DNA from: a virus | Reading direction: 5' to 3' (one strand) | DNA length: 33,175 nucleotides | IMG/VR virus record: IMGVR_UViG_3300024319_000043 | Location: 1 to 33,175 of that record | Shown: piece after piece, positions 23,485 through 24,873 of the stretch | Layout: each line of letters opens with the position of its first letter | Position numbering within the stretch: the first letter of the stretch is position 1 | The notes under the pieces: model-generated | The model's input: only the letters and a program-made list of their open reading frames with translations | Databases searched by the model: none | Told to the model about the DNA's origin: nothing | Translations under genes and position numbers: made by a program

Positions 23485-23952
23485 CTAGGCTTCGATGCCC
23501 AGGGCCGCTAACTTGGCACGCTCCTCGGCGCTAACCTCTGGCTGACTTCCGTCGTCCAGCACGTTGGACGTTGGGGCGGTGCTGTACCCGTCTCCGAAGT
23601 CTGCCTTGTAAGCCGCTTGCGCCTCGCTCAACAGGGACTTGAGCGTGGTAACGGTGAATAGCTCGGCTTGTGCCTGTGCAACGCTGGCTTGGTAGTTGTT
23701 CTCGCTGATCTCGTCGCCGTTGCGGGCCCGCAGCCAGTGCTTAACCCAGCCGCGTTGCGTGTCCAGTCGCTTCTCCGCGCGGGGTAACCAGTACTCACAA
23801 AAGCGAATCTCTTGCTGCAGCTTCATCTGCCGCATAAAACGTAGGGTGTCTACTTGGCGCCAACCGTCGGCTGTTCCCTCGGTGTTGCTCGAACGAATGA
23901 ATTGCTCGCTCATGTTGGTGAATGTTTCCGCGATTTCGTTTACAAGTGTCAT
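23485..23952 (-). CDS. First leftward gene, unknown coiled protein
   Basis: The protein has 155 residues from the ATG with AGGAGAGAG upstream; a longer frame to 24048 is unlikely. It is helical and charged: 'TLVNEIAETFTNMSEQFIRS', 'RFMRQMKLQQEIRFCEYWLPRAEKRLDTQRGW', an Ala/Gln-rich helix near 95-120, and an acidic end. It is the gene nearest the divergent region on the leftward side, set apart by 338 bases from the rest. That place suggests an early regulator or host-takeover protein, but no motif supports a specific function. Confidence 0.6.
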   Translation of the reverse strand: MTLVNEIAETFTNMSEQFIRSSNTEGTADGWRQVDTLRFMRQMKLQQEIRFCEYWLPRAEKRLDTQRGWVKHWLRARNGDEISENNYQASVAQAQAELFTVTTLKSLLSEAQAAYKADFGDGYSTAPTSNVLDDGSQPEVSAEERAKLAALGIEA

Positions 23953-24020
23953 CTGATCTCTCTCCTGATCGGTTGTTTTATCTTCTGCTCCGCGTTTTTT
24001 TGCCCAAAGTGGGCGGCTGG

Positions 24021-24208
24021 AACGAGACAGGCTAGGAGTTGCCCACAACCGACGTAAGGAGGCTTGCAGTTCGCAATGGTCTTGTCTTGCAGGCCAACAG
24101 TAGCCAAGCAGGCTGAGCTATCGGAACAAGAGCCACATCGGCAAGGCAGAGAGAGGGTGGGAGAAGGCCATTGCGAACTGTTGTGGGCTGCTCCAAGCAG
24201 GGCTCGAT
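24021..24208. repeat. Large imperfect inverted repeat with exposed TAAGGAGG bulge
   Basis: Left arm GCTAGGAGTTGCCCACAA (24031..24048) matches the complement of 24181..24198 at 15 of 18 positions. CAGTTCGCAATGG (24067..24079) is a perfect 13-bp match to 24168..24180. An 18-base bulge between the left arms (24049..24066) holds a full ribosome-binding consensus on the plus strand. The apex is 88 bases and can fold further. Confidence 0.82.
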
Positions 24209-24416
24209 CTAGCCGTCCACTAGCAAAAAATCCCCTCACTATCCTATTCTCTCCCTTCTTCGCCTTCAGCCAGGAAAGAGCAATGAATGGAGCGCAACCC
24301 CGGACAAGCGATACTCACCCTTTAGGGCAGAGACAAGCAAGGCGCAGGCTCTGTTCATGAGTAGCGCGGTACTCCACCCCGACCAAAGGAGGGCGGAGTA
24401 TGGCCCAAGGTCACTC

Positions 24417-24428
24417 TTTGTGCGTTGA
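24417..24428 (+). promoter_or_regulatory. Recurring box before terminase genes (copy 2)
   Basis: TTTGTGCGTTGA runs on into CA, giving a perfect TTGACA -35 hexamer. TGTTAT or TATCAA lie 16-19 bases on as possible -10 elements. The box sits 79 bases before the small terminase start. This copy is the best candidate for the main rightward promoter. Confidence 0.55.
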
Positions 24429-24495
24429 CACAAGGGTTTAGCGACGTGTTATCAACGGGGGGAGAGAGGGAGAGGGGGGCTACAAGGAGACGCTG

Positions 24496-24873
24496 ATGAG
24501 CAACGTAGCAACTAGAAAACTAACCAGACGTCAGATAGCTCTGGTGGATATAATGGTATCAGAGGGGCTCAAGCCAGCACAGGCCGCTGAGAAGGCTGGG
24601 TACGCTCCTGGCAAGGCTGGGTATGTCAGTGCGTACAAGAGCCTGAAGACACCACACGTGCAGCAGTACATGATGCAGCGAATGAATGAGGAGTTCGGGC
24701 TAAGTGCTATGGCAGCGGTCAACACCGTGCGCAGACTGGCAACAGGGGCCAAGAGCGAGTACGTGCAGCTAGAGGCTAGCAAGGATTTACTTGATCGCGC
24801 TGGCTACAAGCCCATCGATCGGAGCCAGGTGCAGGTGGCGGGGGACATCAAAGTTAGTATTGACCTTGGATAG
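24496..24873 (+). CDS. Terminase small subunit
   Basis: The protein has 125 residues. An N-terminal HTH ('KLTRRQIALVDIMVSEGLKPAQAAEKAGYAPGKAG') leads into 'SAYKSLKTPHVQQYMMQRMNE', a helical middle, and 'YVQLEASKDLLDRAGYKPID' as in many phage small terminases. It would bind the packaging site, perhaps in the adjacent region, and deliver it to the large subunit at 26777. AAGGAG precedes the ATG. It is separated from the large subunit by nine small genes, which is unusual. Confidence 0.78.
   Translation: MSNVATRKLTRRQIALVDIMVSEGLKPAQAAEKAGYAPGKAGYVSAYKSLKTPHVQQYMMQRMNEEFGLSAMAAVNTVRRLATGAKSEYVQLEASKDLLDRAGYKPIDRSQVQVAGDIKVSIDLG

Follow-up and report, generated by a model that had tools for sequence, protein, structure and literature searches.

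In phage lambda, cos lies just upstream of the small terminase gene and, to our knowledge, is not a long covarying hairpin. The element described here occupies the same place, just upstream of a small terminase gene (terS), but it is a long covarying hairpin and shows no sign of cohesive ends. Integron attC sites fold as single strands and combine a conserved stem with a variable terminal structure, and both properties recur here; unlike attC sites, however, the element occurs in one copy per matching contig, and no integrase was present among the proteins scanned. Like c4 antisense RNA (RF01695) and phage early-gene leaders, many relatives of this locus show complementarity to the ribosome-binding site of the gene that follows. 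In contrast to c4 antisense RNA, the wobble pairs fall on the opposite strand and no Rfam match was obtained. For T7 infection, a hairpin containing the terminal repeat is mentioned in PMC4281155, and this concatemer junction hairpin is comparable in being a DNA hairpin tied to packaging ends in a podovirus. Here, by contrast, no terminal repeat or end was found, and the host-dependent replication genes, the sequence and the length all differ from T7. No description of the element was found in the literature searched, and the term terminase is absent from the accessible part of the text of a paper on marine and phage RNA motifs (PMC2864571).

A long hairpin between gene 1 and the small terminase gene

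The window (the whole stretch of DNA analyzed, 33,175 bases) is the entire record of a marine bacterial virus that is uncultured. It carries head, portal and tail genes of podovirus type together with TerS and TerL, and the leftward block contains genes for a RecE/YqaJ-like exonuclease and an O-like replication protein. The hairpin is positioned between the leftward gene 1, which starts near 23952, and the small terminase gene, and is organized as follows:

23485-23952, minus strand: gene 1, leftward neighbour, predicted helical hairpin protein
23996-24003, plus strand: outermost stem, 5' strand (T-rich), from the fold; partner 24223-24230
24008-24049, plus strand: P1, 5' arm of the long stem, from folds and own-arm test; partner 24180-24221, with small internal loops
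24050-24067, plus strand: junction / P2 region, holding the non-conserved TAAGGAGG at 24055-24062
24068-24090, plus strand: P3, 5' arm of the core stem, conserved CAGTTNGCAA
24091-24156, plus strand: variable terminal region of the core, between the P3 arms
24157-24179, plus strand: P3, 3' arm of the core stem, conserved TTGCNAACTG
24180-24221, plus strand: P1, 3' arm of the long stem, from folds and own-arm test
24223-24230, plus strand: outermost stem, 3' strand (A-rich), from the fold
24496-24873, plus strand: small terminase subunit gene (PHROG 2538 and 51)

The initial annotation had described an inverted repeat with a perfect 13-bp inner arm, an outer arm and a ribosome-binding consensus, and each of these was confirmed. 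The inner arm pairs 24067-24079 with 24168-24180 and is the sole exact 13-bp inverted repeat with a spacer of up to 150 across the 33,175-base window. The core of the proposed structure thus stood, but its extent of 24021-24208 was too short, as the hairpin spans 23996-24230; the plus-strand fold adds eight pairs beyond the earlier extent, between the T-rich and A-rich strands of the outermost stem. Folded as plus-strand RNA, 24000-24230 reached -115.9 kcal/mol compared to a shuffle mean of -79.1 (sd 4.6, z = -8.0), with none of 200 dinucleotide shuffles matching this energy, while the minus-strand fold of the same hairpin was weaker (z = -5.8).

Gene 1 produced no PHROG or Pfam match. There are two gene 1 families that share no sequence relation, and a helical hairpin is the predicted structure in both; a structure search of BFVD and PDB, which covered the commoner family, gave no informative match.

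The hairpin recurs in one slot among related phages

IMG/VR protein searches with TerS and portal identified at least 160 loci, and in many of these the core (GCTTGCAGTTNGCAA ... TTGCNAACTGTT) lies upstream of terS. Two pattern scans matched 57 and 10 contigs, partly overlapping, each with a single copy. After duplicate removal, the same element was present in at least 79 distinct viral loci, between the leftward gene and terS; the window, which is the same as L225 over the core plus 300 bases on each side, is counted once in this set. The TerS gene follows the hairpin by 203-709 nt in 76 of the 79 loci, with no TerS match on the other three contigs, and the leftward open reading frame starts most often ~78 nt before the core, although none is listed for several loci. 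Core length ranges from 40 to 121 nt, and a small hairpin occupies the junction / P2 region in many relatives.

A strong hairpin was also detected, by a crude measure, in 32 of 37 terS-upstream regions outside the 79-locus set, for which the fold z-scores are inflated (best of many windows, crude block shuffle). Thirty-six of these regions came from IMG/VR, including some near-duplicates of the 79-locus set, and one from Pelagibacter phage EXVC031P Hodr. The latter is the closest cultured match found (63% identity for portal, 47% for TerS), and carries a strong hairpin of different sequence in the corresponding slot. No match to the hairpin stretch was obtained by blastn against 50,697 cultured phage records. 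Searching 84,980 species genomes returned a single match, the contig L229, on which a TerS relative is encoded as well; it belongs to a Euryarchaeota MAG and is probably a viral contig binned there. Overall, the element is shared by a large set of phage contigs, its structure being conserved and not its sequence.

The close relatives L043 (near 1426-1730) and L051 (near 2368-2700) share the outer stem and have wholly different inner hairpins, which shows that the core can be swapped as a module.

Pairing is maintained by compensatory change

The initial annotation had proposed a covariance check on relatives, taking an absence of compensatory changes as grounds to discard the structure; the check was run and such changes were present. 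Compensatory change preserves the hairpin, with its conserved core and long arms, at a single position across a large and for the most part uncultured group of phages. Because the MAFFT columns for P1 were unreliable, pairing was assessed sequence by sequence. For P3, one or more of 34 short-form sequences had both bases replaced and still paired at 5 of 13 pairs. For P1, each 5' arm of 37 cluster representatives was scored with all 37 3' arms, and its own arm ranked first in 30 (in the window, the own arm scored 83, whereas the other arms averaged 34.3 and reached at most 55.5). Among close relatives, sorted into 12 groups, a Watson-Crick pair was restored by 19 of the 24 double changes, and one-sided changes comprised 42 G.U, 28 A.C and 47 others. 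The hairpin is therefore very likely a real working element, its pairing being kept in many related viruses despite changes of the letters. Compensatory changes are what a structured RNA should display, and a DNA hairpin would display them equally.

The plus strand is the folding strand

Mismatches flanked by Watson-Crick pairs were scored strand-symmetrically in 48 loci and, read on the plus strand, included 78 G.T and 5 A.C, a tally that counts related sequences repeatedly and is better replaced by cluster-weighted figures. After weighting, G.T exceeded A.C by 33.4 to 1.5 in the inner stem (37 clusters) and by 115 to 8 in the long arms (8 clusters), where other mismatches were commoner than A.C. 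Polarised third-position changes on the plus strand (C>T plus A>G vs G>A plus T>C) were used as a control for mutational strand bias. These were 233 to 348 for portal, 88 to 135 for TerS and 249 to 275 for TerL, and 19 to 47, 52 to 75 and 48 to 87 for three overlapping gene 1 queries; as third-position changes show no bias in the required direction, mutational strand bias was rejected as the source of the G.T excess. Within groups, single changes produced 42 G.U and 28 A.C, compared to 39 and 11 among fixed mismatches, and the weaker bias of single changes is as expected if selection acts after mutation. Because G.T far exceeds A.C without a matching mutational bias, plus-strand pairing, as RNA or single-stranded DNA, is what is kept. 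Transversion counts matched neither pure maintenance of plus-strand pairing nor pure decay and were therefore discarded as a ground for rejecting RNA outright.

A separate local hairpin is found by the ribosome-binding site of gene 1, ~60-40 nt before the core in relatives (24001-24013 in the window), and its odd pairs fit the minus strand (A.C 11, G.T 4 on plus). The local hairpin and the long stem are mutually exclusive, since both use one shared strand.

Long arms mirror gene 1 in some relatives

The stem spans the ribosome-binding site and start codon of gene 1 in many relatives. In 12 of the 79 loci (L006, L017, L022, L025, L037, L063, L068, L189, L198, L200, L207 and L215) the inverted repeat extends for at least ~420 nt, the limit of the search, into or through gene 1, with arm scores of 467-631 compared to 278-323 for one shuffled control each. 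When eight of these loci were analyzed with a longer limit, high pairing continued to about the end of gene 1 in most. Conversely, pairing over 420 nt was near the control level for the remaining loci, including the window (345.5 vs 338.5). The L017 structure folded at -697 kcal/mol on the plus strand and -522 on the minus strand. The long arms are rich in indels and mismatches and track the neighbouring gene, and in L022 double changes are clustered in a patch.

On the terminase side of the hairpin, L017, L189 and ten other loci have a degenerate, inverted copy of gene 1, and nearly all bulges in L017 lie on the gene side. A coding function of the mirrored arm was rejected, the longest stop-free plus-strand frames within 750 nt being 41, 48 and 46 codons in L017 and L022, in a partial check, since terS itself can enter the figures of other loci. 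With these mirrored gene copies, how long inverted repeats arise and are maintained in phages becomes directly testable.

Possible functions of the hairpin

Our tentative preference is that the hairpin may be a cis-acting plus-strand fold-back element that acts on DNA near the terminase, in replication or end processing. The plus strand would become single-stranded, for example as a 3' tail or during replication, and then fold at the hairpin; such a tail could result if the phage's YqaJ/RecE-like exonuclease acted on an end produced by cutting near terS. The fold might mark, protect or prime at this place for end processing, packaging start or replication, and fold-back copying at the hairpin would also account for the degenerate, inverted gene 1 copy that several lineages have on the terminase side. 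Action on DNA is put slightly ahead of a structured RNA because of the low share of G.T pairs, the lack of plus-strand transcript signals, the triloop tips and the place by terS, none of which is decisive. In the inner stem, the weighted 33.4 G.T pairs compare to 1812 Watson-Crick pairs (~2%) and are no commoner than G.A (33.0). A scan for promoter-like sites found none on the plus strand left of the core in the window and none that was clearly positioned in relatives, and the T- and A-runs at the base of the stem are reversed for a terminator of either strand. Read by eye, the P2 and P3 tips of relatives are often triloops, including GNA. Of 65 contig ends within 7 kb left of the portal gene, seven fall 4.0-5.0 kb upstream (terS plus hairpin) among the matches listed, and this hand tally, of contig ends rather than virion ends, revealed no pile-up at the hairpin, which is weak evidence against action on DNA. 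Also against it, G.T tolerance and covariation are classical signs of RNA too, and it is hard to see, for either DNA or RNA, how selection could act on single pairs when the stem has hundreds of them. Neither model simply predicts the surplus of other mismatches over A.C in the long arms. If the element does act on DNA, it would provide a new handle on replication or packaging in this phage group.

Also possible, with a little less weight, is a structured non-coding RNA transcribed from the plus strand, which in many relatives would be antisense to the start of gene 1 and could act in trans, provide a site at which RNase III processes rightward read-through transcripts, or bind a protein. The stronger plus-strand fold, the compensatory changes and the excess of G.T over A.C on the plus strand are all consistent with such an RNA, as is a T-run after the stem in L043 and L051. 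However, the window has no terminator-like T-run after the 3' arm, which adds to the missing promoter and low G.T share noted above. Rfam covariance models likewise gave no matches at the gathering score across the whole window, the four matches in 23900-24520 being at chance level (E up to 5) and including neither c4 nor 6S, and no tRNAs were found. If the element acts as RNA, it would represent a new phage RNA family.

A more elaborate version of the preferred DNA fold-back reading is rather improbable, namely that of a self-building phage element in which the plus-strand core hairpin would prime copying of the neighbouring gene into a long inverted mirror; selection on plus-strand pairing would then maintain the mirrored hairpin, of up to about 1.1 kb, as a structure for end processing or one akin to a telomere, in a phage with double-stranded DNA.

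Control of gene 1 translation by the leader of the leftward mRNA, with minus-strand RNA folding over its ribosome-binding site and start codon, appears unlikely. Leaders opened by RNase III are a precedent for leader control, and this alternative was modelled on these or on c4-type antisense leaders. The stem does cover the ribosome-binding site and start of gene 1 in many relatives, L013, L017 and L144 have leftward promoter-like sites immediately to the right of the 3' arm, and the predominance of A.C over G.T in the local hairpin is G.U-compatible on the minus strand. In contrast, precisely those mismatches that the minus strand would read as G.U are avoided in the long stem, folding is weaker on that strand, and the ribosome-binding site is not clearly covered by pairing in the window, L139, L183, L203 and L217. 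Minus-strand wobble combined with pairing of the ribosome-binding site was thus not found in all members.

Slightly less probable still is a functionless by-product, in which inverted duplications would arise at a palindrome and be kept alike by template switching. The many indels and mismatches of the long arms, the way arms track the neighbouring gene and the L022 patch of double changes are in line with this process, but it leaves unexplained the plus-strand G.T bias, the core conserved in 79 loci and those members with arms that do not reach into the gene. The ribosome decoy suggested by the initial annotation was rejected and TAAGGAGG regarded as incidental because the motif is not conserved, one of the 79 loci having TAAGGAGG and six having AGGAGG.

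Features between the hairpin and terS

A rightward promoter-like site (TTGACA, 16-nt spacer, TGTTAT) was observed at 24425-24452 of the window, within a short inverted repeat (GTTGACAC...GTGTTATCAAC). The interval from the hairpin to terS also contains, at 24457-24479, a polypurine, near mirror-symmetric 23-mer, GGGGGGAGAGAGGGAGAGGGGGG, which is a candidate packaging, triplex or G-quadruplex site. It is letter-perfect in 57 of 78 relatives tested, with similar G/A tracts substituting in some of the others.
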